Positions 39,820 to 54,017 of a stretch of 64,000 nucleotides of DNA are shown piece after piece (within the stretch, counting starts at the first letter, position 1; each line of letters starts with the position of its first letter). Position numbers and translations under genes: made by a program. The notes beneath the pieces are model-generated. The model was given only the letters and a program-made list of their open reading frames with translations, had not been told where the DNA came from and ran no database searches. The DNA comes from Rummeliibacillus pycnus (GTDB taxonomy: Bacteria > Bacillota > Bacilli > Bacillales_A > Planococcaceae): NCBI RefSeq assembly GCF_002884495.1, contig NZ_KZ614145.1, forward strand, positions 558,001-622,000. The letters are read 5' to 3'.

Positions 39820-41004
39820 TTAAATTACTTTAGCTGTGGATGTTTTCGTATTTAATTTTATCTGTGAATATTTTTTACCAAATAATAGAAGGCATAATGC
39901 GGAAGCAACAACACTTCCTGCGAAAATGAGCGCACTATTATATCCACCAAAATATGTAGCGAGTTTACCAGCAATAAGTGGTCCAATTATTTGGCCAACC
40001 GCATAATAAGTGGTAAGAGTTGAAACTACACTTGCACTTTTAGTCGGAAAAAGTTCTCGGCAATAAGAAGTTGTTAAAACCACAATCCCCACAAAAGTGA
40101 CCCCAAATAGGAGGGCAGAGACCATTACGCCAATAATAGTTGTGGAAATAACAGGCAAAATAATACCAATAATTTGTAGAATATATGCTGACGTAATAAT
40201 AACCATAGGTTTATATTTTGACATGAGTAAACTCCAGATAGGTGCTGAAGGTATAGCGCCAATCCCTACAATAACCCAACTGTAACTAGCGTAATTCTGT
40301 AAACTTGGCATTTCGTGAATCATATCTACCAAAAAAGTTCCTGTAATAATATACCCTAATCCTTCTAATCCATAGGCGATTGTAATCCATGGCATAAAAC
40401 CAGTCCAGAATTTTTGCGTGGTTCCTTTTATTTTTTCATATGCTGGATCCTCTAATTTCTGCCATAAGAAGTGATTTGTAAGTACAAAAACAGCAGATAG
40501 AATACTAAGTCCTATAAAAGCTCCTTGCCAGGCAAAGAATTTTTGCAAATATGGTACCAAAATTCCTGATAAAGCAATTCCAACTCCAATACCGCTAAAA
40601 ACATAGCCAGACCATTTAGTAAGATAATGACGAGCTAAATAATCCAATAGCATGCTGGAAGTTAAAACAAATATAAGACCACCAGTAATTCCGTTGATTA
40701 AACGCAAAACTAACCATACATAAAAGTTGTGAACAATTCCCATGCCCAATATGGAAATCACACAAATCCAAGCATTCATGTAAAGTCCTTTTTTCTGATT
40801 TTTTACAATAAAACCTGCCCATAGAGCACCAATAAAATAACCAATGTAATTTGCAGAAGCTAACCATCCACCTTTTTCAACAGACAATCCCTCTGCTTCA
40901 CGTAGAAAGGGTAGGATAGGTGTCAGCGAAAAACGACCAATTCCCATTGCAACTACCAAAAATAAAACCGCCCCAACAATGATCGTTGCATGTTGACGAT
41001 TCAT
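39820..41004 (-). CDS. MFS transporter, YbfB/YjiJ family
   Basis: 394 aa with about twelve membrane helices. GIGRFSLTPILPFL at the N-terminus and LASANYIGYFIGALWAG in helix 2 are typical of the YbfB/YjiJ group (MFS_4). The substrate is unknown. GGGGGTG lies 5 nt before ATG 41004, so the in-frame codons further up, which include the ribosome site itself, are not translated. It faces cheW and is not part of the yqj backbone. Confidence 0.85.
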   Translation of the reverse strand: MNRQHATIIVGAVLFLVVAMGIGRFSLTPILPFLREAEGLSVEKGGWLASANYIGYFIGALWAGFIVKNQKKGLYMNAWICVISILGMGIVHNFYVWLVLRLINGITGGLIFVLTSSMLLDYLARHYLTKWSGYVFSGIGVGIALSGILVPYLQKFFAWQGAFIGLSILSAVFVLTNHFLWQKLEDPAYEKIKGTTQKFWTGFMPWITIAYGLEGLGYIITGTFLVDMIHEMPSLQNYASYSWVIVGIGAIPSAPIWSLLMSKYKPMVIITSAYILQIIGIILPVISTTIIGVMVSALLFGVTFVGIVVLTTSYCRELFPTKSASVVSTLTTYYAVGQIIGPLIAGKLATYFGGYNSALIFAGSVVASALCLLLFGKKYSQIKLNTKTSTAKVI

Positions 41005-41224
41005 GAAAACACCCCCATTAAGTAGAAAAAAATGACGCAAACGATAAATACAGTATAACTTAATTAAGGGCTAATTTGGTATATATTGGTTTAGGATGAT
41101 AAAAAAGTTTTTGTTCAGAATGAAAGAGAAGAAAAGTAGATAGGTAGTTGAAACCTGCCCATAAAGGCCTAATTGGTTCAACTAACCCTAAGTGGGGTTG
41201 GAGAAACCTCCACTTAAGGAAGTT

Positions 41225-41761
41225 TTACTGATCCCATTCGTCAGCAAGTATGCCATAAACAGCATGGTCTACAAAATGGTCATAAAGCCATTCGTTACTG
41301 CGAAGTGTTCCTTCGTGAACATATCCTAAACGTTCAGGAATACTTCTACTTTTTTTATTTTTAATAGCAGCGCGTATTTCAACTTTATTCATATTTAATT
41401 CTTTAAAAGCATAGTTGGTTAAAGTTTGAACTGCGCTTGTCATAATGCCGTTTCCTTGGTATTCGCTCCCTAACCAATAGCCAATAGAAGCTAAACGATT
41501 TGTACGATTAATATTGTTGAAACCTGTGATTCCAACGACTTTTCCCTTCCAAATAATCGCTAAATTTAATAGTGTACCATCATTTTCACCTTTTTGACTA
41601 AAGGTAATATAATTATGTGTATCTTCTTCTGTCTTCGTGCCATCAACCCACGGAAGCCATTCTCTTAAATATGCTCGATCATCATCTGTTAATGAAAATA
41701 GGGCCTTTGCATCTTGTAGGTTTACAGGTCTTAAAATAAGATCATCAGAGACTTTTAACAT
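41225..41761 (-). CDS. GNAT acetyltransferase, RimJ/RimL (YdaF-like)
   Basis: 178 aa. LILRPVNLQDAKALFSL at the N-terminus, then the acetyl-CoA loop YWLGSEYQGNGIMT near residue 92 and NKKSRSIPERLGYVHEG give the standard RimL fold. Such enzymes acetylate N-termini of ribosomal proteins or small amines. The substrate is not predictable. Only a modest AAAGG ribosome site precedes the ATG. It is separate from the MFS gene by 220 bp and probably independent. Confidence 0.88.
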   Translation of the reverse strand: MLKVSDDLILRPVNLQDAKALFSLTDDDRAYLREWLPWVDGTKTEEDTHNYITFSQKGENDGTLLNLAIIWKGKVVGITGFNNINRTNRLASIGYWLGSEYQGNGIMTSAVQTLTNYAFKELNMNKVEIRAAIKNKKSRSIPERLGYVHEGTLRSNEWLYDHFVDHAVYGILADEWDQ

Positions 41762-41923
41762 ATGTATCTACAACCTTTCAAAATATTCTTACTATTGTAA
41801 TGGATATTACTGTAAAATTGCAATAGATTTCTGAAATTTCTTTTGGATTTATGAATATTTAGTCTTCCGAATATTTTTGTTATACTAGAAGGAGAACGTT
41901 TGGTCGATAATGGAGGAGAAGCA

Positions 41924-43165
41924 ATGACTGCTCATGGGAAAATTATTTTTCATATTGATATGAACTGTTTTTATGCTTCTGTTGAACAGGCATACGATCC
42001 TCGACTAAAGGGAAAGGCACTTGCGATAGCTGGAAATCCAAAAGAACGTAGGGGAATACTTGTTACTTGTTCTTATGAAGCAAGGGCGAAGGGTGTTTAT
42101 ACGACAATGTCTGTATGGGAAGCAAAACGTAAGTGCCCTGAACTAATCTTAATGGCACCAAATTTTGAACGATATCGTCATGCATCACAGGCTATGTTTG
42201 CGATATTACGTACATATACGGATCTTGTTGAACCTGTTTCCATCGATGAAGGATATATGGATGTAACGGAAATTGTACATGGAAAAGAAGCAATTGAGCT
42301 GGCAGAGTCAATCCAAAGGCGCATTTTAAACGAATTAGATTTACCTTGTTCTATAGGAATTGCACCCAATAAATTTCTTGCTAAAACAGCTTCTGATATG
42401 AAAAAGCCTATGGGTATTACCATTTTAAGAAAACGCGATGTATCGAAAATGCTTTGGCATCTTCCCGTTATTGAAATGCATGGAGTAGGAGAAAGTACTG
42501 CCAAAAAGCTTGAAGAAATAGGGATTCATACAATTGGAAATCTTGCCAATATAGAAGAACATCGAATCAAAACGATTCTTGGTAAAAACGGACTTCGCTT
42601 AAAAAATCGTGCCAATGGAATTGATAGGCGTGAAGTAGATCCTAACGCTATTTACGATACAAAATCAATTGGTAATTCAATGACTTTTCCTATTGATTTG
42701 ATGGAGTTTTCAGAGTTAGAAAATGCGATTCAAAAACTATCTGAAAAGGTTGCTAAACGATTAGATGCAAAAAATTTAGCAGGGCATACTGTTTCGATTA
42801 TGATACGTGATACGGATTGGCATAATAGTAGTCGAAGTAAAACTGTGTCAAATGCAATTTATAAAAAAGAAGAAATTGCTGAATTAGCAGTAGCTCTAAT
42901 GAAAAATAATTGGGATGGATCGCCCGTACGATTAATGGGGGTAACTGTCAGCAATGTGATCGATAAAAAAGAAACAGCAGAGCAGTTATCCATCTTTACG
43001 TTTGAAAAGTACGTAAAAGAAGAACCAGTATTGAAAATTGTTGAAGAATTACAACGTAAATTTGGCAAAGATATTATTACAAAAGGGATTAAGGATGTAA
43101 AGAAAACAACTTACGAGTCCCAAACAAGTTTTAGTAAAGACTTTTTGGATGATCATAAAAAATAG
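41924..43165 (+). CDS. dinB: DNA polymerase IV, Y family (YqjH/DinB)
   Basis: 413 aa translesion polymerase. IIFHIDMNCFYASVEQ carries the first catalytic Asp and SIDEGYMDV the second Asp-Glu pair; a helix-hairpin-helix (MHGVGESTAKKL) and little-finger domain follow. A clamp-binding-like motif (QLSIF) is seen near residue 350. TGGAGGAG precedes ATG 41924. No LexA box (CGAACN4GTTCG) was found upstream, so SOS control is not evident. It corresponds to B. subtilis yqjH and is followed by rnz. Confidence 0.94.
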   Translation: MTAHGKIIFHIDMNCFYASVEQAYDPRLKGKALAIAGNPKERRGILVTCSYEARAKGVYTTMSVWEAKRKCPELILMAPNFERYRHASQAMFAILRTYTDLVEPVSIDEGYMDVTEIVHGKEAIELAESIQRRILNELDLPCSIGIAPNKFLAKTASDMKKPMGITILRKRDVSKMLWHLPVIEMHGVGESTAKKLEEIGIHTIGNLANIEEHRIKTILGKNGLRLKNRANGIDRREVDPNAIYDTKSIGNSMTFPIDLMEFSELENAIQKLSEKVAKRLDAKNLAGHTVSIMIRDTDWHNSSRSKTVSNAIYKKEEIAELAVALMKNNWDGSPVRLMGVTVSNVIDKKETAEQLSIFTFEKYVKEEPVLKIVEELQRKFGKDIITKGIKDVKKTTYESQTSFSKDFLDDHKK

Positions 43166-43176
43166 GAGGAAAACAA

Positions 43177-44121
43177 TTGCAAATTCAATTTTTAGGTACA
43201 GGTGCAGGAATGCCTTCTAAATCACGTAATACAAGCTCATTAGCACTAAAATTATTAGAGGAGAGAGGGACTATATGGTTATTTGATTGTGGCGAGGCAA
43301 CACAACATCAAATTTTACATACAGCCATCAAACCGAGGAAACTAGAGAAAATTTTTATCACACACTTACATGGGGATCATATCTATGGATTACCAGGATT
43401 ATTAGGCTCTCGCTCCTTTTTAGGTGGGGATCAACCGTTAACAATTTATGGACCAAAAGAATTAAAAGAATGGATTCAAGTAACCTTGCAAACATCACAA
43501 ACACACCTCAATTATTCGATCGAGTTTGTTGAAGTGAAAGAAGGGGTTATTTTTGAAGATGAAGATTTTATAGTAACTGCAATGCCTCTACAACATGTCG
43601 TTCCTTGTTTTGGCTATCGTATTGAACAAAAACCATTGCCAGGAACGCTTCAAGTAGAAAAAGCTCTAGCATTAGGTGTTCCAAAAGGCCCTTTACTCGG
43701 ACAATTAAAAAATGGACTTGATGTCACATTAGAAAATGGGACAATCATTCAAAGTGCATCCGTCACAGAACCACCTAAAAAGGGATTTACTGTTACAATT
43801 TTAGGAGATACTAGATATTGTGAAAATGCCATCAAACTTAGTCAAATGGCAGATATTGTCGTACACGAAGCTACTTTTGACCATGCAACTGAAGAGTTAG
43901 CAGCAAATTATGGTCATTCTACAAATATAGATGCAGCAAATGTAGCACGAATAGCAGGTTCTAAAAATTTATTGTTAAATCATTTAAGTGCCCGTTTTTT
44001 TCCAAAAGATATTGAAAATATGCTGAAAGAAGTGAAAGAATTATTTCCAAGTACAATTATTGTAAATGACTTGGATGAATTTAATTGGCAACAAGGCGAA
44101 CTAAGAATATCGGATCAATAA
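43177..44121 (+). CDS. rnz: Ribonuclease Z
   Basis: 314 aa metallo-beta-lactamase-fold tRNA 3'-endonuclease that trims tRNA precursors lacking encoded CCA. THLHGDHIYGLPG is the main zinc motif, with GDTRYCENA and a final LNHLSARF completing the site; the PKGPLLGQLKNG exosite region is long-form bacterial. The TTG start at 43177 follows AGGAGG by 8 nt. It corresponds to B. subtilis yqjK and probably shares a transcript with dinB (11-bp gap). Confidence 0.95.
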   Translation: MQIQFLGTGAGMPSKSRNTSSLALKLLEERGTIWLFDCGEATQHQILHTAIKPRKLEKIFITHLHGDHIYGLPGLLGSRSFLGGDQPLTIYGPKELKEWIQVTLQTSQTHLNYSIEFVEVKEGVIFEDEDFIVTAMPLQHVVPCFGYRIEQKPLPGTLQVEKALALGVPKGPLLGQLKNGLDVTLENGTIIQSASVTEPPKKGFTVTILGDTRYCENAIKLSQMADIVVHEATFDHATEELAANYGHSTNIDAANVARIAGSKNLLLNHLSARFFPKDIENMLKEVKELFPSTIIVNDLDEFNWQQGELRISDQ

Positions 44122-44158
44122 AACAAGCAAGGAAATTTAATTTTCCTTGCTTGTTTTG
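44121..44158 (+). terminator. Terminator after rnz
   Basis: AAAACAAGCAAGGAAA pairs with TTTCCTTGCTTGTTTT. Confidence 0.92.
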
Positions 44159-44189
44159 AGGTATAGAGGAAATGTCATCTCATGAAAAT

Positions 44190-44259
44190 CCAGACTGGTT
44201 GATGGCGCTAAAGTAGACAGGGCGTAAGCAAAGGAAGAAAAACACATCTACCAGTCTGA
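44190..44259. repeat. Long-range inverted repeat
   Basis: CAGACTGGTTGATG and CATCTACCAGTCTG are the ends of a 70-bp element whose middle contains GGGCGTAAGC, like degenerate Bacillaceae extragenic repeats. No T run adjoins it. Confidence 0.5.
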
Positions 44260-44271
44260 AATAAGGAGGAT

Positions 44272-44334
44272 TCAATCTCAAGCTTTAACTTTAATGATTC
44301 ACCGATAAATCATTATTGCTAGAGCTTGGATTGT
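44272..44334. repeat. Compound inverted repeat behind the esterase gene
   Basis: CAATCTCAAGCTTTA and AGAGCTTGGATTG form an imperfect outer stem around AATGATT/AAATCATT. It lies about 60 bp behind the stop of the minus-strand esterase gene and may contribute to its 3' end. Confidence 0.45.
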
Positions 44335-44393
44335 ATTATATGTTCAATTTAGAAAATTAGCTTGTGCGTATGACACGAGCAAGAAGCTGACGT

Positions 44394-45320
44394 TTATGAC
44401 TTTTTTGTTCCAAAGAAATCAGCAATCCATTCAGTCGTCTTTTTCGTATCTTCTTCAAAGAATTCCATTTTACTAAAATAACTGTGAATAAGACCAGGCA
44501 TGAGGATATGTTTTGCTTCAACACCGCATTCTCTTAAGCGTGTTATGTAAGCGATACCTTCATCCAATAAAACATCGTATTCAGCAGCAATCAAGATCGT
44601 TCGAGGAAGACTTTGAAAGTCCTCTGCTAATAACGGTGATACGGACGGGTTTATGCTTTCATTCGAATCTCCAATATACTGTTTTGTGAACCAAATCATA
44701 CCATCTCTATCTAAACCGTACCCTTTACCGAACTTTTCGTATGAAGATGTATTAAAATTAGTATTTGTAACAGGATAGATCAATGCTTGTCCTGCAATTT
44801 TAGGGCCATTTTTTGCAACCGACCATTGCGATACAACAGCAGCAATATTCCCTCCAGCGCTGTCCCCGGCAACATACATTTTCGAAGCATTGCCATGTAA
44901 TGTAGATGCATTTTCTACTGCCCAAAGAAACGCATCATAGCTATCCTGAACAGGAATTGGAAAAGGAAATTCAGGTGCAAGACGATAGTCAACGGATATA
45001 ACGATCGAATGAGCAGAAGCAGTTAAGTATCGACATCCTCCATCTGCATAATCTGGATTCCCGAAAACCCATCCTCCACCATGATAATAGACGATTATGG
45101 GAAATGGACCATTACCTTCTGGAGTATAAATGCGTACGGAAATTTGTGCTCCATCAGAGACAGTAATGAGCCGATCTTCAATTTTAGAAATTCCACCAAC
45201 TGAAACTTGATGAATTGGTGAAGCAGCTCTTTCTGCTCTAGCTTCTTCTGGTGTTTGCTCATAATATGGTATACCTTGGTGCGCATCTATATATGCGAAG
45301 GATCCTTTAGTCAAATTCAT
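44394..45320 (-). CDS. Alpha/beta-hydrolase, HSL/Aes-type esterase
   Basis: 308 aa. The oxyanion-hole motif YYHGGGWVFGN is near residue 80, the nucleophile Ser is in AGDSAGGNIA near residue 150, and the acid and His are in AEYDVLLDEG and GLIHSYF. It is a cytoplasmic carboxylesterase or lipase-like enzyme without a signal peptide. The natural substrate is unknown. The start follows GGGTGGG. It is a single-gene unit. Confidence 0.9.
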   Translation of the reverse strand: MNLTKGSFAYIDAHQGIPYYEQTPEEARAERAASPIHQVSVGGISKIEDRLITVSDGAQISVRIYTPEGNGPFPIIVYYHGGGWVFGNPDYADGGCRYLTASAHSIVISVDYRLAPEFPFPIPVQDSYDAFLWAVENASTLHGNASKMYVAGDSAGGNIAAVVSQWSVAKNGPKIAGQALIYPVTNTNFNTSSYEKFGKGYGLDRDGMIWFTKQYIGDSNESINPSVSPLLAEDFQSLPRTILIAAEYDVLLDEGIAYITRLRECGVEAKHILMPGLIHSYFSKMEFFEEDTKKTTEWIADFFGTKKS

Positions 45321-45590
45321 TTAAACCCACCCTTTCCAGAAAAAAATTGTAAAGATAGTATACCATAATAAATTAATTAAACCAATAGAATAACTAGGTT
45401 TTAAGAGAGAATTGGAAATAAAAATAGAAAATATGAATTTGAACATGTTTTGTCATAATTCAAAGATAAAATTGATTCAATTAAAAGAAACGCAGAGTAT
45501 GAAATTCCTCTACGTTTACATATTCAATAAGCATTTAGTGGATGGATGTATTTTTGTTTTAGTAACACTATGGTAAATTTTTTTAATATA

Positions 45591-45965
45591 TTATTCTATG
45601 ACATTAAACCAAAGAGGTGAGTGATCATCTGTATCACCATTGTAGTTGATCGTTAGTTCTTCTCCTTCTTTAATATCTTCTAATGCATAAAAATCAATGG
45701 ATTGATTTTCTTCGTTATTATAAAAAGTTACATTTGGGGTATAAGAATGATTAAATAGTGATCCAAGACCAAGTGCAATCGCTGTATCGTCCTCTCCCCA
45801 ATAAAAACAGTAATAAAAGAGAACTGTTTTTTTTAAATATTTCCACTCAGAACTTAAAGATATGACTACAGGTGAAACTTCAATAAGTTCATCTTTTTTA
45901 ATATCTCGTGTAGCAAAAAGTCCTCTTCCGTATTTACCAGTATCTTTCACCATTATTGGTAACAC
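45591..45965 (-). CDS. SET-domain protein
   Basis: 124 aa, a compact SET domain: KYGRGLFATRDIKKDELIE at the N-terminus, LFNHSYTPNVTF with the Asn-His core, and ELTINYNGD as the closing segment. SET domains methylate lysine with S-adenosylmethionine; bacterial stand-alone versions are little studied. The GTG at 45965 lies 10 nt after GGAGG and is preferred to the ATG four codons later. It lies between the esterase and the CotH cassette, with no gene it clearly belongs to. Confidence 0.85.
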   Translation of the reverse strand: MLPIMVKDTGKYGRGLFATRDIKKDELIEVSPVVISLSSEWKYLKKTVLFYYCFYWGEDDTAIALGLGSLFNHSYTPNVTFYNNEENQSIDFYALEDIKEGEELTINYNGDTDDHSPLWFNVIE

Positions 45966-46074
45966 AGTAGTAATTCCTCCTTACATGTTAAAAGTATTTT
46001 CTAAATAAAGTAAGGTTAAAGAATATGTGTATTTTTTTTCAATTTCATCTATCGAAAATGGATTGATTTCGCTG

Positions 46075-46138
46075 CGGATTGCTCGCTTATCTACCGTGTA
46101 TTAAGCAGACATGCTTTTTCACATAATCGAGCAATCCA
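46075..46138. repeat. Inverted repeat between the SET and CotH genes
   Basis: GGATTGCTCG and CGAGCAATCC are 10-bp arms of a 62-bp element. It lies downstream of the minus-strand cotH copy and upstream of the SET gene; no T run follows it. Confidence 0.55.
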
Positions 46139-46205
46139 CTGCTAATGCAAAACAAATACCTTAACCTTGTTAGATAGTTTATAGAAGACTATTTTTCGGG
46201 ATTGG

Positions 46206-47291
46206 TTAGACAAGTAACTTTAACTGATTGATCAAAAAATGATTACGCATTTTTATAAACTGAAAAATGATTTCGGGTTCTTGATCAAATAGCTCGATTT
46301 TATTTTTTTTATAGGGATCAAGAATAAGATGAGGGCGTATCAATTCATGTAAAGATAAAACTTTGTCTTTCATATATTCAATTGTGAATTTTGTTTCAAG
46401 GGTTTCTTCTAATTTTTCTCGATACATTTTTCTGAATTCTGGTACTTCCAAGAGAAGATAGCAGAGCTTATTATCTGGTTTACCTCCTATTGGTACATAA
46501 GTATGATCCATGATCCCACCGCTTACTTTTCTTCCCCATGTAGCATCATAATCCCAAGGCATTATTTCGAACAAACCCGTTTCACTATTACGATAAAGAG
46601 AGTAATTGTGCGTAAAGCCATCATTATTCATCGTACAAACTGCACCAACTAGCCAGCAAAAGAATTTTTCGATGTCGATATACTTCTCAATTTTCTGGGG
46701 GAATGCAGAAGAAGGGGTTTTATTAATAATAGTAATTAGTTCACGTAATCGTTCATCATCGTCTGGTGTCCCACAAGCTTGATAATAACCTGATAAACGT
46801 GATTTTTTGGGTTTATCGTCTCTTGTCAAAGAAAAGTTAGCATCATTATTTTCTGCATAGTAGATGGGACCAGTGGGGAGATTTCTTTTCTTTAAGAACA
46901 TTTCATCAACCGATTCTAATTGTAAATAAACACCTTTTAATACACCATTTCGATAGAAGTTAATATGTTGAGAGTTTGGTGATAAGACACCAAGATCTTG
47001 AAAAAAGTCGAGGGATAGTTTATTTCGTATAAGGGATGGGTCTCTGTATTCTGCATTTAGATGTATTTTATGAGCTCCGAAAAGATAATCATTTTCATCG
47101 AAATGAATGGTATAGGATCTTTTTCGGAACTTTCGAGTGTATGAGCCTCGATAGCCGATTTCAATTTGGTGAGTAGTCTTACCTACCCTTAATTTGGCAG
47201 GTACAGTATCTTCATAAAGTAAATTTTCTCTTAAAGTGTCTAAGTCATCTTCTTCAATCATTAAATAATACGATGGAATTGATTTAGACAT
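46206..47291 (-). CDS. cotH: CotH-family spore coat protein kinase, copy 1
   Basis: 361 aa, cytoplasmic, near the length of B. subtilis CotH, an atypical kinase that phosphorylates coat proteins such as CotB and CotG. The active-site segments are clear: RKFRKRSY near residue 54, ESVDEMFLKKR near 126, MNNDGFTHNY with Asp224, and PWDYDATWG with Asp247 and Asp249. It lies behind the Ser/Lys-rich gene and a second CotH copy, all on one strand. Expression in the mother cell late in sporulation is expected from the family; no sigma-K promoter could be fixed by eye. Confidence 0.9.
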   Translation of the reverse strand: MSKSIPSYYLMIEEDDLDTLRENLLYEDTVPAKLRVGKTTHQIEIGYRGSYTRKFRKRSYTIHFDENDYLFGAHKIHLNAEYRDPSLIRNKLSLDFFQDLGVLSPNSQHINFYRNGVLKGVYLQLESVDEMFLKKRNLPTGPIYYAENNDANFSLTRDDKPKKSRLSGYYQACGTPDDDERLRELITIINKTPSSAFPQKIEKYIDIEKFFCWLVGAVCTMNNDGFTHNYSLYRNSETGLFEIMPWDYDATWGRKVSGGIMDHTYVPIGGKPDNKLCYLLLEVPEFRKMYREKLEETLETKFTIEYMKDKVLSLHELIRPHLILDPYKKNKIELFDQEPEIIFQFIKMRNHFLINQLKLLV

Positions 47292-47340
47292 TTATTCACC
47301 TTCTTGTTTTTTCTAAAAAATGATCATTTCTTTTATAACT

Positions 47341-47404
47341 TTTAGCCGACAACAAATATGTCTAGTAAAAACAATTCGACAAAGACAATATTTGTTGCCG
47401 GCTA
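47341..47404 (-). terminator. Inverted repeat upstream of cotH copy 1
   Basis: AGCCG-CAACAAATAT and ATATTTGTTG-CGGCT form a long, slightly imperfect stem. It may end or attenuate transcription coming from the Ser/Lys-rich gene; only a short T-rich stretch follows. Confidence 0.5.
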
Positions 47405-47416
47405 AACAATTTATGG

Positions 47417-47460
47417 ATAAAAGCCTTCCTTACTCATAGACTAAGGAAAGCTTTATTTTA
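47417..47460 (-). terminator. Hairpin after the Ser/Lys-rich gene
   Basis: AAAGCTTTCCTTA and TAAGGAAGGCTTT form the stem (mismatch near the base) just behind the stop. With the hairpin at 47341 it separates this gene from cotH copy 1. Confidence 0.6.
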
Positions 47461-47495
47461 CCTACATGCTTACACGGGATTTACTTCAGCTCATT

Positions 47496-48032
47496 TTAAC
47501 ATGGGTTATTTCCAGTAGAAGTATGATGTGTTGAAGTATTTCCTGAAGTTGTACTTCCCGTAGATGTTTCGTCAGTAGATGTATTTCCTGTAGAAGTAGG
47601 TGTAGTTGTACTTCCGTTAGTAGTAAAACCACTTGAAGTATATCCAGATGATGTATGACTAGATGAATTGCTACCTGAAGAATGACTAGAAGAAGAACTA
47701 GAGCTTATGCCTTTTTTGCCCTTTTTGCCTTTCTTTCCAGAAGACGAACTGCTAGTGGATGAACCGCCAGTGGATGAACCGCCAGTGGATGAACCGCCAG
47801 TGGACGAACCGCAGGTAGATGAACTAGATACCATCATTTTTTTGCCTTTTTTGCCTTTCTTCCCTTTACTACTTGAAGAAGAGCTACTTGAAGATGAATT
47901 ACCAGTGGATGAACTACTTGAAGTAGAATGTCCGGTAGAAGTATGACCAGTAGAAGTGCAACCACAAGAAGTAGTACTTTCAAAAGATGAACTTTCTGAA
48001 GAAAAATCTTGGAATCTTGCATTTTGCTCCAT
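47496..48032 (-). CDS. Ser/Thr/Lys-rich low-complexity protein, candidate spore coat kinase substrate
   Basis: 178 aa; well over half the residues are Ser, Thr or Gly. Two blocks of GKKGKKGKK-type sequence (about residues 56-65 and 99-108) lie between long Ser runs, with SSTGG repeats in the middle and STG repeats in the tail; Cys occurs near the N-terminus (CGC) and as the last residue. AAGGGGGTG precedes ATG 48032. It lies between two CotH kinase genes, the position that B. subtilis gives to cotG, whose Ser/Lys repeats CotH phosphorylates. The sequence is not CotG, so function is inferred from composition and context. Confidence 0.7.
   Translation of the reverse strand: MEQNARFQDFSSESSSFESTTSCGCTSTGHTSTGHSTSSSSSTGNSSSSSSSSSSKGKKGKKGKKMMVSSSSTCGSSTGGSSTGGSSTGGSSTSSSSSGKKGKKGKKGISSSSSSSHSSGSNSSSHTSSGYTSSGFTTNGSTTTPTSTGNTSTDETSTGSTTSGNTSTHHTSTGNNPC
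47755..47814. repeat. Four 15-bp tandem repeats inside the Ser/Lys-rich gene
   Basis: AGTGGATGAACCGCC occurs three times followed by one variant, encoding SSTGG units on the minus strand. Near-perfect DNA identity points to recent expansion and likely length variation between strains. Confidence 0.9.
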
Positions 48033-48140
48033 TATAAAAGGCACCCCCTTAACTAAGAATTAATTTTATAATACGCAAACCAAATATCTTGCCTTAGTCT
48101 AATACCTAATGCATGAGGGATATAGATAAATAATCTTCTA

Positions 48141-49223
48141 TTATAAATCATTCAGATGCATTTTTAGATAATTGTTCCGATGATGAACAAATTGAAAAAT
48201 CATTTCGGGCTCATAATCAAATATATCAATATTGCTGTTTACATAGGGGTCTAGTAAAATGTGTGGTCGTAGTAGTTTATGAAGTGTTAATACTTTGTTT
48301 TCAATATGTTCAACTGTGAACTTCGTTTCAAGGATTTCTTCTAACCTTTCTTTATACATTTTACGGAATTTTGGGACTTCCAATAAAAGCGCAGTTAGCT
48401 TATTACCTTGTTTTCCTTCAATTGGAACGTATTTATAATCCATAATGCCTCCACTGATTTTCCTTCCCCAAGTTGCATCATAATCCCAAGGGAGTATTTC
48501 AAATAAGCCTGTATTACTATCACGATAAAGTGAATAATTATGATTAAATCCATCATTATTCATTGTACACACTGCTCCAGCTAACCATTTTAAATACTGT
48601 TCAATATTTAGATAATTTGAAATTACATCGGGGAATCTATGGGGAGAGGTAGTATTAATAATCAAGATTAAATTAAGCAAATGTTGATCATCAGAAGGGG
48701 AGCCATTTGCTTGTAAAAGACCAGATAAGAGATTTCTTTTTCTTTTGCCGTCTCTTTCGATAGAAAAGTTAGCATCATTGTTAGTAGCATAGTAGATAGG
48801 ACCTGGGGGAAGAGCTCGTTTCTTTAAAAATAGATCATCTACTGATTCAAGTTGTAAATAGACGCCTTTAAAATTATTATTTCTGTATAATGCAATATGT
48901 TGACTTTCAGGTGCATGAACGCCGATATCTTGAAAGAAGTCTAGTGAGAGTTTATTGCGAAAAAGCGATGGGTCTTTATATTCTGCATTAAGATGAATTT
49001 TACGAACACCTAAAGAATTCTTTATATCCTCAAAATCAATTACATAAGATCGTTTTCTAAATTTTCGAGTATATGCACCTCGATAAGCAATTTGGATTTT
49101 GTGATCAATTTCTGCAATCTGTAAATTCGCCGGAACGGATTGATCTGTTACTAAATTTCTTCTAAGAAGATTTAAGAAATTTTCTTCAATCGATAAATAG
49201 TAGGAAGGAATAGCATTTGACAT
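48141..49223 (-). CDS. CotH-family spore coat protein kinase, copy 2
   Basis: 360 aa, a paralogue of the copy at 46.2 kb that aligns along its length with most active-site residues identical: RKFRKRSY, ESVDDLFLKKR, MNNDGFNHNY and PWDYDATWG. AAGGAGATG precedes the ATG. It is the first gene of the cassette, 108 bp before the Ser/Lys-rich gene. Both kinases look active, so they may differ in target or timing. Confidence 0.9.
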   Translation of the reverse strand: MSNAIPSYYLSIEENFLNLLRRNLVTDQSVPANLQIAEIDHKIQIAYRGAYTRKFRKRSYVIDFEDIKNSLGVRKIHLNAEYKDPSLFRNKLSLDFFQDIGVHAPESQHIALYRNNNFKGVYLQLESVDDLFLKKRALPPGPIYYATNNDANFSIERDGKRKRNLLSGLLQANGSPSDDQHLLNLILIINTTSPHRFPDVISNYLNIEQYLKWLAGAVCTMNNDGFNHNYSLYRDSNTGLFEILPWDYDATWGRKISGGIMDYKYVPIEGKQGNKLTALLLEVPKFRKMYKERLEEILETKFTVEHIENKVLTLHKLLRPHILLDPYVNSNIDIFDYEPEMIFQFVHHRNNYLKMHLNDL

Positions 49224-49438
49224 TTATTCATCTCCTTAGGACTCATTGCTCCAATTTCGAGATGAGCCAATGTTACGTCTAAAAATAAGATCCATTTGTA
49301 TCATACGTAACACAAATTTTTTCAATTAGATTTCAGCCTGATGAAATGAATTGGTTTTGATATGTATTTGATAATTTAAACATAGAACCATTAAATTTGG
49401 ACAAGTTAAGGAAAAGAAAAAATTCTGAGGTGATGAAA

Positions 49439-50968
49439 ATGATGATAGAAAGGTCGCCTGAATGGGAAGAAGGATTTCTAAATAGATTGGAAACCAACAG
49501 TGAATGGGATAATTGGAAACTATATACGATGTGTTACGAAGTCGTAAAAGCTAACCTAATTACAGAATTTACGGGTTTACAATCTCCAAAATATTTACCT
49601 AATTTAACGCCTCTTACACATCAATTAGAAGTTGCACAAAAAGTGATTGAAAGGATGAATGGTAAAGCGATATTGGCAGATGAGGTGGGGTTAGGTAAAA
49701 CGATTGAAGCGGGATTGATTCTGAAAGAATATTTAATACGAGGGCTTGTGAAAAAAGTATTAATATTAGTCCCAGCATCTCTCATAAACCAATGGATAGA
49801 AGAATTAAATAATAAGTTTTATATCCCTGCTATTCCTTATAAAAAGAACTCCTCGTTAGATCAGATTGACATTGTTGTAATGAGTATGGATACCGCCAAA
49901 AAAAGTCCTCATAAAGAGCTTATCTATGGTCAAGAGTATGACATGATCATCATCGATGAAGCCCACAAATTAAAAAACCACAAAACCAAAATCTATGAAT
50001 TTGTTCAAAGCCTAAAGAAAAAGTTTTGCTTATTGCTAACGGCAACGCCAATTCAAAATGATGTGTTTGAACTTTTTTATCTTATTTCCTTACTTAAGCC
50101 TGGGCATTTAGGGAATTTTGATGTATTTCAATCTGCATTTTCAGCGAGTAAACATGATTTAGAGAATGATGAATTTTTGAAGGAATTGGTCAATCAAGTA
50201 ATGGTAAGAAATAGAAGACAAGACACAGGGGTAGAGTGGACGAATCGTTGTGTCCAAAATATTCCAGTAGAGTTTACAAAAGAGGAAAGAGAAGTCTATG
50301 ACATGATTTTAGAACTGAAGGATGTGTCACCCATTTTCTCTGGTTCTTTTTCAATGATCACGCTCCAAAAGGAAATGTGTAGCAGTAAAGAGGCTACGTG
50401 CTTAACTTTAGAAAATTTACTCCAAAATTGTAATGAGGTCGAAGAAGTAAAATTTGTAGAGGAACTAATTGCAAAATTAATGGCTCTTCAAACGAATTCA
50501 AAAGCAGAGAAGGCATATGAAATTATAGCTAAAGCAAATGATAAAGTTATTATATTTACGGAGTACCGCGCGAGTCAAATTTATCTTCAATGGTATTTGC
50601 ATACAAAAGGAATTAAAAGTGTACTTTTTAATGGAAAATTCAACAAAAGCAAAAGGGATTATATGAAGAGGCTCTTTCAAGAACAAGCTCAAGTACTAAT
50701 TGCAACGGAAGCTGGAGGTGAAGGGATTAACCTACAGTTTTGTCATCATGTGATCAATTATGATTTACCATGGAACCCTATGAAATTAGAGCAACGAATA
50801 GGACGTGTTCACAGATTAGGACAAGAGCAAGATGTCCATATTTATAATCTTGCGATTGCAGATACAATCGAACAAAACATACTGGATTTACTTCAAACTA
50901 AAATTGAAGTATTTGAAAAGGTTGTGGGTGAGTTAGACGATATCTTGGCTATTGAAAAAACGATGTAA
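49439..50968 (+). CDS. SNF2-family helicase (YqhH-like)
   Basis: 509 aa from ATG 49439, which lies 6 nt after GAGGTG; the frame is open up to TTG 49397. Helicase motifs: ADEVGLGKTIEA (Walker A), IIIDEAH (DEAH), LTATP, then the second RecA lobe with ATEAGGEGINLQ and QRIGRVHRLGQ. It is a short bacterial Swi2/Snf2 ATPase without extra domains, as in B. subtilis YqhH. It probably translocates on DNA to displace proteins. The yqhG-like gene follows by 29 bp. Confidence 0.9.
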   Translation: MMIERSPEWEEGFLNRLETNSEWDNWKLYTMCYEVVKANLITEFTGLQSPKYLPNLTPLTHQLEVAQKVIERMNGKAILADEVGLGKTIEAGLILKEYLIRGLVKKVLILVPASLINQWIEELNNKFYIPAIPYKKNSSLDQIDIVVMSMDTAKKSPHKELIYGQEYDMIIIDEAHKLKNHKTKIYEFVQSLKKKFCLLLTATPIQNDVFELFYLISLLKPGHLGNFDVFQSAFSASKHDLENDEFLKELVNQVMVRNRRQDTGVEWTNRCVQNIPVEFTKEEREVYDMILELKDVSPIFSGSFSMITLQKEMCSSKEATCLTLENLLQNCNEVEEVKFVEELIAKLMALQTNSKAEKAYEIIAKANDKVIIFTEYRASQIYLQWYLHTKGIKSVLFNGKFNKSKRDYMKRLFQEQAQVLIATEAGGEGINLQFCHHVINYDLPWNPMKLEQRIGRVHRLGQEQDVHIYNLAIADTIEQNILDLLQTKIEVFEKVVGELDDILAIEKTM

Positions 50969-50997
50969 AAAAAAGCAGGAACATAGGAGGTGGATAC

Positions 50998-51777
50998 ATG
51001 TTCCCACAACAAGTTCATCGCTATTTACGTGATTTTTTTCAACAAACAGATTGTGCCATTATTGAGGAAGCAGATCATTATTTAACGGTTCAACTAACAA
51101 TTGAAATGGACAAAAGAATTATGAACCGACCTTTTTATTGGAAATATGTCGAAAGTACAAATGGTACACCATGTCCATCTACATTAACGTTTATCACCAA
51201 TCAGAATAAGATGAATGGCAGTTTAAATGGTGAAATAGTTCATTTTGGATCATTTCGGCTAAATCAACTTTTTCAAGTAACGAAAGAATTAGGAGCATAT
51301 GTTCAAATGTATGAAAGAGTGGATAAAACGGTATCGCAAGTTGTTTTAACACCCTTTTTAGGGATCAACTATAAAGTTTCATACTACTGCGATCAAACCA
51401 AGGAAATGCTCTATTCGCTTGGTATTAACTTAATGACTGGTAATATTATTGATGATTTTCAAATGTTATTGAATAATTTAGATTTAGGATCAGAGTTACC
51501 AGATTCATGTTACCCACTACCATATATCATTAAACCTGTTCGTGCTATACAACGATTAGATGCAGTAATTGAAAATATTATAAATCAGGAAGATCATTCA
51601 TGGGCCGAACAGGCAAAAAAAAGATGGCAACGTGATCAAAGAGTATTAGATTATTTTTATGAAGAGGTAGAGGAAAAACCTGAGTGCTATGAAATAGAGA
51701 AGAAAGCTTTAGAAGAACGATATGCTTCAAAGATTAAAATTGAAATCATTAATGGTGGACTTTTTTATTTAAAATGA
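50998..51777 (+). CDS. yqhG: YqhG family protein
   Basis: 259 aa, soluble. MFPQQVHRYLRDFFQQT at the start, RPFYWKYVE near residue 40 and CYPLPYIIKPVRAIQRLD near residue 175 are family features. No catalytic motif is apparent. In B. subtilis yqhG and yqhH are neighbours, and the same pairing here suggests the protein is a partner of the Snf2 ATPase. AGGAGG precedes the ATG. Confidence 0.85.
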   Translation: MFPQQVHRYLRDFFQQTDCAIIEEADHYLTVQLTIEMDKRIMNRPFYWKYVESTNGTPCPSTLTFITNQNKMNGSLNGEIVHFGSFRLNQLFQVTKELGAYVQMYERVDKTVSQVVLTPFLGINYKVSYYCDQTKEMLYSLGINLMTGNIIDDFQMLLNNLDLGSELPDSCYPLPYIIKPVRAIQRLDAVIENIINQEDHSWAEQAKKRWQRDQRVLDYFYEEVEEKPECYEIEKKALEERYASKIKIEIINGGLFYLK

Positions 51778-51908
51778 TAATTTAACTACATGTTTTTGAA
51801 TGATTTATAAAATGATAAAACCAAATTCAAAAATTGAAAAAACATTTTGTCTGGTATAAGGGGGGATGATGTAATTCACCCTTATACCAAAATGGCAACA
51901 CTTTAAAA

Positions 51909-51937
51909 TTGATTTCATACCCCTGTAGGTATATAGT
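51909..51937 (+). promoter_or_regulatory. DUF302 gene promoter with CsoR/CstR-like palindrome
   Basis: TTGATT and TATAGT are 17 bp apart, and the spacer contains ATACCCCTGTAGGTAT (51917-51932). This differs at one position from ATACCCCTATAGGTAT in the OsmC-gene promoter at 19.27 kb and sits in the same place. Confidence 0.65.
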
Positions 51938-52002
51938 TTATTTGTACTAGTGAGGAAATAGGGTAATCTATTTTTGAATATAAGTAAAGGGAGTGGAACG
52001 TG

Positions 52003-52386
52003 ATGTTTCATTATACAGCAGATTCTTCTAAAAATATGGAAGAGACAATTGAAAGTTTAAAGGAAAATTTAAAGAATGAACAATTTGGTGTTCAATGGAT
52101 TTTTAATATCAATGAAAAATTAGAGGCGAAAGGTCTTACTTTGCCACAGAAATATCAAATTTTAGAAGTATGTAATCCGGTTGAAGCACACCGTGTTCTT
52201 ACAAAGAATCCTCTTGTTAGTTACTTTTTACCTTGTAAAATAATTGTGTTTGAGGAGAATAATCAAGTTAAAGTAGGCATGCCGCTTCCAACTGCACTAA
52301 TTAGTATGGTGGAAGATCAAGATTTAAAAGAAATTGCTGAGTCAATCGAGAAACGACTTATTCATTGTATTGAGCAAAGTTTATAA
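52003..52386 (+). CDS. DUF302 domain protein
   Basis: 127 aa; the DUF302 pattern is visible (ESLKENLKNEQFGVQWIFNI, then the YQILEVCNPVEAHRVL segment with the conserved Cys and FLPCKIIVFE with a second Cys). AAAGGGAG lies 9 nt before ATG 52003. DUF302 proteins often occur with sulfide- or copper-responsive operons, and this promoter carries a matching operator. The biochemical role is unknown. A bidirectional terminator follows. Confidence 0.88.
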   Translation: MFHYTADSSKNMEETIESLKENLKNEQFGVQWIFNINEKLEAKGLTLPQKYQILEVCNPVEAHRVLTKNPLVSYFLPCKIIVFEENNQVKVGMPLPTALISMVEDQDLKEIAESIEKRLIHCIEQSL

Positions 52387-52410
52387 TTAAATCATTACTA
52401 TAGAAAATCA

Positions 52411-52464
52411 TTCAAAAAGCTGTTCCAAGGTGAGATCATTTACCTCAGAAACAGCTTTTTGAAG
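52411..52464. terminator. Bidirectional terminator between the DUF302 and spore hydrolase genes
   Basis: TTCAAAAAGCTGTT and AACAGCTTTTTGAA with an inner AGGT/ACCT pairing serve the two converging genes. Confidence 0.88.
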
Positions 52465-52468
52465 TCTA

Positions 52469-53740
52469 TTAAGGGTTCTTTTTAATAGTAAAAGTATCTC
52501 CGAGTAACACCCAATTTTGAGGATATGGGAATCCTAACGCCCAATAACTGACACCTCGTAGTTTAAACCTTTTTATTAAATCAAATTTTGCTTGAGCACT
52601 TCTGGCATCTTCAAACCAAACTTCATGTTGTTGTCCATTTTCATCTACATAGCGGAAGAATGGTGATTGGGTAGCGATATCATAGTGAATAATGGTTCCA
52701 AATTTTGCGGCACGTCGGATCGCTTCTTGTGGGCTGAATGTTTCGGCTTCTTGTCCTTTAACATGAGGTATTTTCCAATCTCTCGCATAAATTTGGAATC
52801 CTAAAAATAGTTTATTTGCTGGGATTACCGTCAAGGCATATTCGACAACCTTTTTCATTTGATTAATTGGTGAAATCGCTTGAGGCGGTCCTAATCGATA
52901 TCCCCATTCATAAGTCATCAATATCACGAAATCGGCTATTTTCCCGTGAGCCTTATAATCATGCGCTTCATATAAAAGCCCACCTTGTGTGGCACTTGTT
53001 TTTGGAGCAAGTGCTGTTGACACAAAATAACCCTTTGGATGAAGGCGATCAACAGCAAGCTGAAGAAATGCATTATAATTCTGTCGATCTGCAGGTAATA
53101 CACTCTCAAAATCAATATTTAAACCCTTATAGCCTTTCTGATCCATAATTTTAAGGACATTCGCAATTACTTTTTCTTGTAAAACTTTACTAGATAATAT
53201 GGTATGAGCTAAATTTGATCCTGTTTGAGTAGCTGTGAAGTTTGTAATGGACATCAACGGTACTACGTTTGTTGATTTTGCTGCCTTAATCATTAATTCA
53301 TCAGGAAACGGTTCTAATGTGGCATCTTCTTTCACTTTATAAGCGAACGGGCTCATATAGGTAAGTAGATTTCCAACATCTTTTATAGATTGTGCGCCCT
53401 CTGCAGGAGATTGATACGTATAAGCATTCACTTCAATGGTAGGTTTGAATTTGGGAATAACTAGACGCATTCCAACATATAAAGTAGACGCATTTGAAAG
53501 ATGATTTTCACTCACAATAGCTTGCACCGTTGTTCCATAACGGTTAGCAATTTGCCATAAGGTATCTCCAGGACGAACTACGTGGGTGATGCCATACGTT
53601 GGAATCACAAGTGATTGGCCAATTACAAGGTTATTTGGATTGGGTAATTGATTGATCTGAATGATGGAATTGATATCTACATTGTAGTGAGAAGCAATTT
53701 GCCAAAGTGTCTCGCCTCTGCTAACAATATGTATCTCCAA
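52469..53740 (-). CDS. LysM-GH18 spore cortex hydrolase, SleL/YaaH-like
   Basis: 423 aa from TTG 53740, 7 nt after AAGGAGA; earlier in-frame codons are unlike the family. Two LysM domains (residues 1-47 and 50-95) are followed by a GH18 domain with GYKGLNIDFESV holding the catalytic Glu. The enzyme class cleaves N-acetylglucosaminyl bonds in spore-cortex fragments during germination. There is no signal peptide, as is usual for SleL/YaaH made in the mother cell. YdhD and YvbX are similar alternatives. Confidence 0.88.
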   Translation of the reverse strand: MEIHIVSRGETLWQIASHYNVDINSIIQINQLPNPNNLVIGQSLVIPTYGITHVVRPGDTLWQIANRYGTTVQAIVSENHLSNASTLYVGMRLVIPKFKPTIEVNAYTYQSPAEGAQSIKDVGNLLTYMSPFAYKVKEDATLEPFPDELMIKAAKSTNVVPLMSITNFTATQTGSNLAHTILSSKVLQEKVIANVLKIMDQKGYKGLNIDFESVLPADRQNYNAFLQLAVDRLHPKGYFVSTALAPKTSATQGGLLYEAHDYKAHGKIADFVILMTYEWGYRLGPPQAISPINQMKKVVEYALTVIPANKLFLGFQIYARDWKIPHVKGQEAETFSPQEAIRRAAKFGTIIHYDIATQSPFFRYVDENGQQHEVWFEDARSAQAKFDLIKRFKLRGVSYWALGFPYPQNWVLLGDTFTIKKNP

Positions 53741-54017
53741 AGCATTCTCCTTCCAATAAAAAATAGTATCATTCCGTAATGTATATGTACAAAAGAATTG
53801 GATATGCAAATAACTTTTTAAGAGATTATTTTTTATGAATAAAAAAATTATATCTCGGACTTAATTAGTTACTTTCGAGGATTTGCCATTCTCGGTAAAG
53901 CAATGAGCTGTTCGGATTATTAGATGAAGTTTACATGATGAAATTGATGTAAATCAAATTCTACAAATCTATAAAAGGTAGTTCAATATTAACTAAGTGT
54001 TAATTTGAAAATGATTC

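Follow-up and report, generated by a model that had tools for sequence, protein, structure and literature searches.

The genome of Rummeliibacillus pycnus (Planococcaceae) contains, in a stretch of 64,000 nucleotides called the window here (NCBI RefSeq assembly GCF_002884495.1, contig NZ_KZ614145.1, positions 558,001 to 622,000), a CotH-family kinase gene (CotH2) preceded by the gene of a Ser/Thr/Gly-rich protein (SRP) and followed by the gene of a minimal SET-domain protein (SET). Our comparison across 261 genomes of the family demonstrates that SRP-CotH2-SET is the conserved unit, and not the kinase-substrate-kinase arrangement that the original prediction had read from the window, where a second kinase gene, CotH1, lies upstream of SRP. 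We propose that SRP is a polymer of the spore coat or exosporium, phosphorylated by CotH2 and methylated on its lysines by SET; to the whole of this inferred chain we would give slightly less than an even chance.

Conservation of the SRP-CotH2-SET order

In the window, the four genes are co-directional and are transcribed from the minus strand in the order CotH1, SRP, CotH2, and SET, with 204 bp between SRP and CotH2 (Table 1). The original prediction was right in its coordinates, in the length of 178 aa, and in its motifs: two CotH genes, both with intact MNNDGF and PWDYD segments, flank a Ser-rich protein that ends in Cys. The SET gene downstream of CotH2, which falls outside the range 46206-49223 considered then, was overlooked.

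The CotH domain (PF08757) was present in 117 of the 261 family genomes (E-value 0.001), and the surroundings of each of the 72 small CotH genes among the matches listed (open frame up to ~420 aa) were taken. One gene with internal stops (L092) was left out of the tree and of the counts, L015 and L091 are one locus, and L164, a locus from outside the family, was kept out of the 18 loci of the CotH2 clade. The resulting 71 small CotH genes fall into the CotH2 clade (18), CotH1 (three), clade A (43), and a group of seven labeled Ureibacillus-type after its sole named member, L015. At all 18 loci of the CotH2 clade, a SET gene on the same strand lies directly downstream of the kinase gene, with gaps of -8 to 70 bp in the relatives of the window locus, and a low-complexity Ser/Thr/Lys/Arg/Gly open reading frame, in one case cut by a contig end, lies upstream of it. 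A SET gene directly follows none of the other 53 small CotH genes, among which L060 offers just 184 bp of downstream sequence. A profile of the 18 SET proteins run over the 261 genomes returned the same 18 at 211-243 bits, by construction, and no nineteenth match before 150 bits, where an unlinked SET paralogue begins. The three-gene order of the original prediction, searched for in the family genomes, was divided by these data: the linkage of SRP to CotH2 holds at 18 of 18 clade loci, and the kinase-substrate-kinase order is not conserved.

Three further genera of the family have the module, and 398 sampled genomes of the class yielded one more full module, outside the family, in genome G427 (SET at 221 bits, with a CotH2-like kinase). 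The upstream protein of the G427 locus (L164:4012-4566) combines a KGKGKGK / TTTGQ start with a part of ~140 aa that has no Pfam match.

Tandem repeats with a period divisible by three, at least 60 bp long and at most 1.4 kb upstream (less at contig ends), precede 16 of 18 kinase genes of the CotH2 clade, 37 of 43 of clade A, seven of seven of the Ureibacillus type, and none of the three CotH1 genes, the window's included. With CotH1 excluded, this makes 60 of 68 small CotH genes; the ~566-kb remainder of the loci of these three groups contains 24 such arrays, overlapping reports being counted separately. A repetitive stretch beside CotH is the rule in Planococcaceae, and the original prediction, which placed CotH beside a CotG-like protein of low complexity rich in Ser and Lys, is borne out to the extent that a repetitive neighbor is kept. 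This pairing is the already known CotH/CotG theme, widespread in the family. Divergent Arg/Ser/Thr/Asn repeat proteins, TSRNRRRTSRVRV, stand beside CotH without SET at clade-A loci (L067:3557-4282 and L074:3481-4185), and their N-terminus reads MSLFFEEEIQRA..LNDFMFQDP. Ureibacillus-type CotH genes are accompanied by divergent proteins with GSRGSRG or GSKGNK repeats, the longest of 316 aa (L109:5705-6655, L112:1-580, and L111:3715-4245).

Table 1. Features of the CotH-SET locus, in positions of the window
Feature	Coordinates	Strand	Description
CotH1	48141..49223	-	360 aa, CotH-family kinase; PF08757 256 bits; Rummeliibacillus-level paralogue of CotH2
SRP	47496..48032	-	178 aa, Ser/Thr/Gly-rich, CotG-like; predicted substrate of CotH2 and SET, from its composition and its counterparts at 17 other CotH2 loci
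First Lys block, KGKKGKKGKK	47838..47867	-	SRP residues 56-65, 7 Lys
Second Lys block, GKKGKKGKK	47712..47738	-	SRP residues 99-107, 6 Lys
Two strong stem-loops in the SRP-CotH2 gap	47310..47470	-	z -3.8 and -5.95; possible leaky terminator or attenuator
CotH2	46206..47291	-	361 aa, CotH-family kinase, predicted cognate kinase of SRP; PF08757 271 bits
SET	45591..45965	-	124 aa, minimal SET-domain protein, predicted protein lysine methyltransferase; Pfam SET 2.1e-20

Repeats and lysine clusters of SRP

The open reading frame of SRP extends back to a GTG at 48044 (182 aa), and a start at the ATG at 48032 gives 178 aa; ahead of this ATG stands AAGGGGGTG, which by eye resembles a ribosome-binding site and is overlapped by the GTG. 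The 178-aa protein contains 67 Ser, 32 Thr, 26 Gly, 13 Lys, and 4 Cys residues, and Lys, Arg, and His together make up 20 of the 178. All 13 lysines are confined to residues 56-65 and 100-107. The repetitive central part, with its two GKKGKKGKK blocks and a 30-bp repeat in 2.7 copies, is weak compared with that of the relatives. An exact GKKGKKGKK occurs twice in the genome of R. pycnus, both times in the SRP gene, and in none of the 260 other family genomes.

In three pairs of related SRP loci, 53 of 70, 39 of 55, and 5 of 8 substitutions fall on the third codon position, and the length differences are multiples of three; the alignment was guided by the proteins and leans toward position 3, and the window's own SRP gene lies outside the pairs. 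Judged by this constraint, the reading frame of SRP does not seem to have arisen by chance. The complete family counterparts of SRP have lengths of 64-286 aa and are built of various repeats (SSSTG, TTGTT, TTGHK, STGSGSRG, and others), and the share of Ser in Ser plus Thr ranges from 0.06 to 0.93, the two residues being swapped at one orthologous locus. While the repeats diverge, GKK or KGK clusters are found in the complete SRPs of 17 of 17 loci; the counterpart from the Rummeliibacillus genome POC4 (L113), which is cut by a contig end and Arg-rich as far as visible, was left out of the composition counts. The cluster lies inside the first 14 residues at 14 of the 17 loci (MPKGKKAR, MPVMPGKKG) and is placed elsewhere in the SRPs of the window, L110, and L095, the last of these loci having a tandemly duplicated SRP gene (L095:5591-6236). 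Lysine accounts for a median of 0.71 of Lys plus Arg in the 18 SRPs linked to SET (17 loci), compared with 0.06 where clade-A CotH lacks a SET gene, a value from the 13 repeat proteins, at 13 of the 43 clade-A loci, that passed the filter applied.

The SET protein and its candidate target

Proteins of the SET superfamily are lysine methyltransferases. Among solved structures, the profile of the 18 SET proteins matches Set7 of Schizosaccharomyces pombe (5h6z) at 2.3e-25 and the viral vSET at 2.9e-17. The AlphaFold model of SET, obtained with an alignment of 37 sequences, has a predicted local distance difference test score (pLDDT) of 87.9 and a predicted template modeling score of 0.81, a poor model from 18 sequences (pLDDT 67) having been set aside; Foldseek superposes it on Set7 5h6z with a template modeling score of 0.79, 41% identity, and an E-value of 3.3e-11. 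Residues N72, H73, S74, and Y108 are invariant in the 37 SET proteins, and in the profile alignment they pair with the NHS motif and the tyrosine of vSET, which we take to be catalytic. A model of a SET-bearing effector from NCBIfam was disregarded as a weak SET match (22.8 bits against a cut-off of 550), and SRP, CotH1, and CotH2 had no match in that database. The unlinked kind of SET gene is present in most family genomes and in some other Bacilli; the copy in the genome of R. pycnus (L168:4510-4944) has no CotH among the open reading frames of at least 100 aa within 10 kb.

The module has a recurrent neighbor in a CotB-type cluster, which adjoins SRP-CotH2-SET at 11 of the 18 loci, that of POC4 among them, and thereby connects it with the cotB/cotH/cotG theme. 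The label CotB-type is our assumption from sequence motifs, as Pfam gave just weak DUF2642-type matches. In the genome of R. pycnus itself, the cluster (three genes of 159, 475, and 225 aa; G000:C1:2718330-2721125, L174:1831-4632) lies 2.1 Mb from the operon and is followed by a different gene. All 21 genomes tested for SpoIVA have it; 19 of these carry the module, and the other two are Rummeliibacillus genomes that lack the module.

These neighbors bear on the best rival explanation, which we regard as rather unlikely, namely that the locus is an ordinary CotH/CotG-type module in which CotH2 phosphorylates SRP, and the co-transcribed SET protein modifies some other target, such as a CotB-type protein, CotH2 itself, or a protein outside the coat. 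Both the linkage and the phosphorylation of CotH and CotG are established elsewhere, according to the available part of PMC7821199. The frequency of CotB-type genes beside the module favors this explanation, as does genome G612, where a SET gene of 173 bits occurs with a B226-type gene and with no CotH in the 11 kb read. Some SRPs, moreover, offer few lysines (5 in each of L098 and L102 and 3 in what can be read of L113). However, SET accompanies the CotH2 clade at every one of its 18 loci, and lysine clusters are the element that all complete SRPs have kept while the rest of the protein diverged.

CotH1 and the two-kinase bracket

The matches of both kinases to PF08757 (Table 1) compare with a cut-off of 23.8 bits. 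The active-site positions (NxDGF and PWDYD), presumably catalytic, are invariant across 25 aligned CotH rows, and the profile of these rows, the window's two kinases included, matches the solved CotH structure 5jd9 at 6.7e-155. CotH1 is 64% identical to CotH2. In a tree of 72 CotH rows, one of them from outside the family, rooted at its midpoint, the three CotH1 proteins of Rummeliibacillus form a group of their own (support 100/99) beside CotH2 of the same genus, and CotH2 and CotH1 together make up one side of a branch with support 100/100. CotH1 is most simply explained as a duplicate that arose within or near the genus Rummeliibacillus.

The bracket of two kinases around SRP was observed in one of four Rummeliibacillus genomes. 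POC4 has two CotH genes on separate contigs, that of CotH2 ending just upstream of SRP; R. suwonensis has CotH1 only; and the fourth genome has neither. In R. suwonensis and POC4, CotH1 sits between a helicase gene, which we take to be yqhH-like, and the gene of a 120-123 aa protein. CotH1 of two Rummeliibacillus genomes adjoins the gene of a small, conserved protein that has KKHR and NKKKKS clusters (L014:6168-6539 and L013:6314-6676) and was not detected among the open reading frames of window positions 41001-54000. The genome of R. pycnus also encodes a third CotH-domain protein of ~1037 aa (L117:4991-8104), of a longer kind present in several genomes of the family.

That CotH1 and CotH2 act jointly on SRP in R. 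pycnus seems improbable to us. The three genes follow one another in the same direction, and the kinases are close paralogues, but CotH1 has no repeat gene upstream of it in POC4 and R. suwonensis, and at the other 17 loci SRP-CotH2-SET stands without a neighboring CotH1. With a genus-level duplicate in the tree, a bracket in a single genome of four, and no repeats before any of the three CotH1 genes, the kinase-substrate-kinase unit of the original prediction is not supported.

Signals in the intergenic regions

Of the 16 regions between SRP and CotH2 that were folded, 12 have a z of -2 or below relative to their shuffled versions, which only roughly preserve dinucleotides; L093, L095, L103, and L108 do not reach this value, and L094 and L113 are outside the folded set. 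A simple scan for intrinsic terminators found none, with 1.9 expected. The stem-loops would agree with a substrate made in abundance and enzymes made in smaller amounts. A string CAC - 16 nt - AATACA(A/T)TG, noticed by eye, recurs at several loci and is not claimed as a promoter.

Comparison with known systems

The likeness to the cotB/cotH/cotG genes of B. subtilis consists in a CotH-family kinase with a Ser/Lys protein of low complexity as its neighbor (PMC7821199, PMC9765600) and in the adjoining CotB-type clusters. In contrast to the B. subtilis module, SRP is co-directional with CotH and located upstream of it, and a SET gene follows. CotG of B. subtilis has 47.8% positively charged residues (PMC9765600), to be set against the 20 of 178 in SRP. 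As far as the available part of that paper goes, most CotG-like members have a high positive charge, although the B. licheniformis protein is weakly positive, and CotG-like proteins lack mutual sequence homology. Since they are not homologous in sequence (PMC9765600), the emphasis of the original prediction on a protein unlike CotG carries little weight as an argument for novelty. Like the CotG-like modular proteins, SRP is repetitive and stands beside cotH, for which sequence homology is not needed; it differs in the linkage to SET, in the recurring GKK/KGK clusters, and in the Ser/Thr swap at one orthologous locus. Such modular proteins were reportedly treated by Saggese and coworkers in 2016. 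ExsB of the B. cereus group is reported to be phosphorylated on Thr (PMC7821199), which fits the Thr-rich counterparts of SRP.

Set7 (5h6z) and vSET (1n3j/3kma) resemble SET as single SET domains of ~120 aa and are its best profile and fold matches, whereas SET is bacterial and tied to a spore-coat kinase operon. Another SET protein from a spore-former, BaSET of a Bacillus species, is described in the available part of PMC3980110 as a secreted histone H1 methyltransferase dispensable for spore formation, and this description sets it apart from SET. Finally, silaffins are Ser/Lys-rich proteins of unlike sequences in which phosphorylated Ser and modified Lys yield a zwitterionic polymer (PMC11733937). 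The lysines of diatom silaffins bear long-chain polyamines, whereas the modification predicted for SRP is methylation, with which the SET gene lends the comparison a possible mechanism. The silaffin-like character of SRP is meant as an analogy of chemistry, and a mineral role is not supported.

Proposed role of the module

We suggest that the module of SRP, CotH2, and SET serves to modify the spore coat in Planococcaceae. SRP would be an abundant, disordered, CotG-like protein of the coat or exosporium, made in the mother cell; CotH2 would phosphorylate its Ser/Thr tracts, and SET would methylate the lysines of its GKK/KGK clusters. The product would be a zwitterionic polymer rich in phosphate and methyl-lysine, which may assemble an outer layer of the spore. 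The stem-loops between SRP and CotH2 could let the substrate outnumber the enzymes, and CotH1, as a paralogue, may act in trans. It seems improbable to us that SRP serves on the spore surface as a plain spacer or as a mucin-like, O-glycosylated protein and is no kinase substrate, its linkage reflecting co-expression only: TTG/STG repeats do resemble glycosylated surface repeats, and composition alone cannot separate phosphate from sugar, but CotH adjoins SRP at every clade locus, and no glycosyltransferase was seen among the open reading frames around the window operon, L096, and L105 (by eye in the latter two, with no profile search there).

Several observations weigh against the proposed role of the module. 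In the window, the gap between CotH2 and SET is 240 bp, compared with at most 70 bp elsewhere; it has no second match in the genome of R. pycnus, and an insertion element in it was therefore rejected. The SRP of the window has no KGKK motif at its N-terminus, and its net charge of +8 on 178 aa is below the high positive charge expected of CotG-like proteins. Arg exceeds Lys in four of the 18 complete SRPs, and the 131 visible residues of L113 include 3 Lys and 24 Arg despite the SET gene downstream, a reading that presumes the Ser-rich frame, another frame being open too. The neighbors of Ureibacillus-type CotH are Lys-rich without SET in three of five cases. Genome G427, with the module from outside the family, is flagged as 8% contaminated, and its taxonomic place is uncertain. 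Among 17 kinases, no column of the CotH alignment cleanly tracks whether the substrate is of the Ser or the Thr type, so that a kinase-substrate coevolution signal was rejected; position 257 is Asp in six of six kinases of the Thr type and also in one of 11 of the Ser type, which relatedness may explain. A strict sigma-K pattern was found upstream of SRP in one of 18 regions (those of 17 loci in the family plus L164, without L113), with 0.8 expected from base shuffles, and a looser score was not distinct from shuffles; sigma-K promoters before SRP are not supported, the strict matches being no commoner than chance.

The CotH/CotG/CotB system is the best-known case of protein phosphorylation in the spore coat. 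If the proposed role of the module is true, the lysine methyltransferase of the operon adds a second coat modification to it. More tentatively than the chain itself, we consider that the operon may be dedicated to a structural polymer and its two modifying enzymes, CotH phosphorylating tens of Ser/Thr residues and the minimal SET protein methylating the lysine clusters, with a silaffin-like zwitterionic coat polymer as the result and a native, non-host target for SET. Bacterial SET proteins are treated mainly as modifiers of host histones, and an archaeal one was tested on an archaeal chromatin protein, in the available part of PMC3980110. In a library of open-licence papers, our searches aimed at this module listed no work that joins CotH, a SET domain, and bacterial spores, and none on methyl-lysine of Bacillus coat proteins; the works listed concern fungi, by their titles, or metaproteomics. 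SRP would provide, if methylated as proposed, a native target for bacterial SET proteins. Moreover, the Ser-to-Thr swaps and the Lys- versus Arg-rich proteins that go with the CotH clades would make the family a natural series on what a disordered coat polymer needs.

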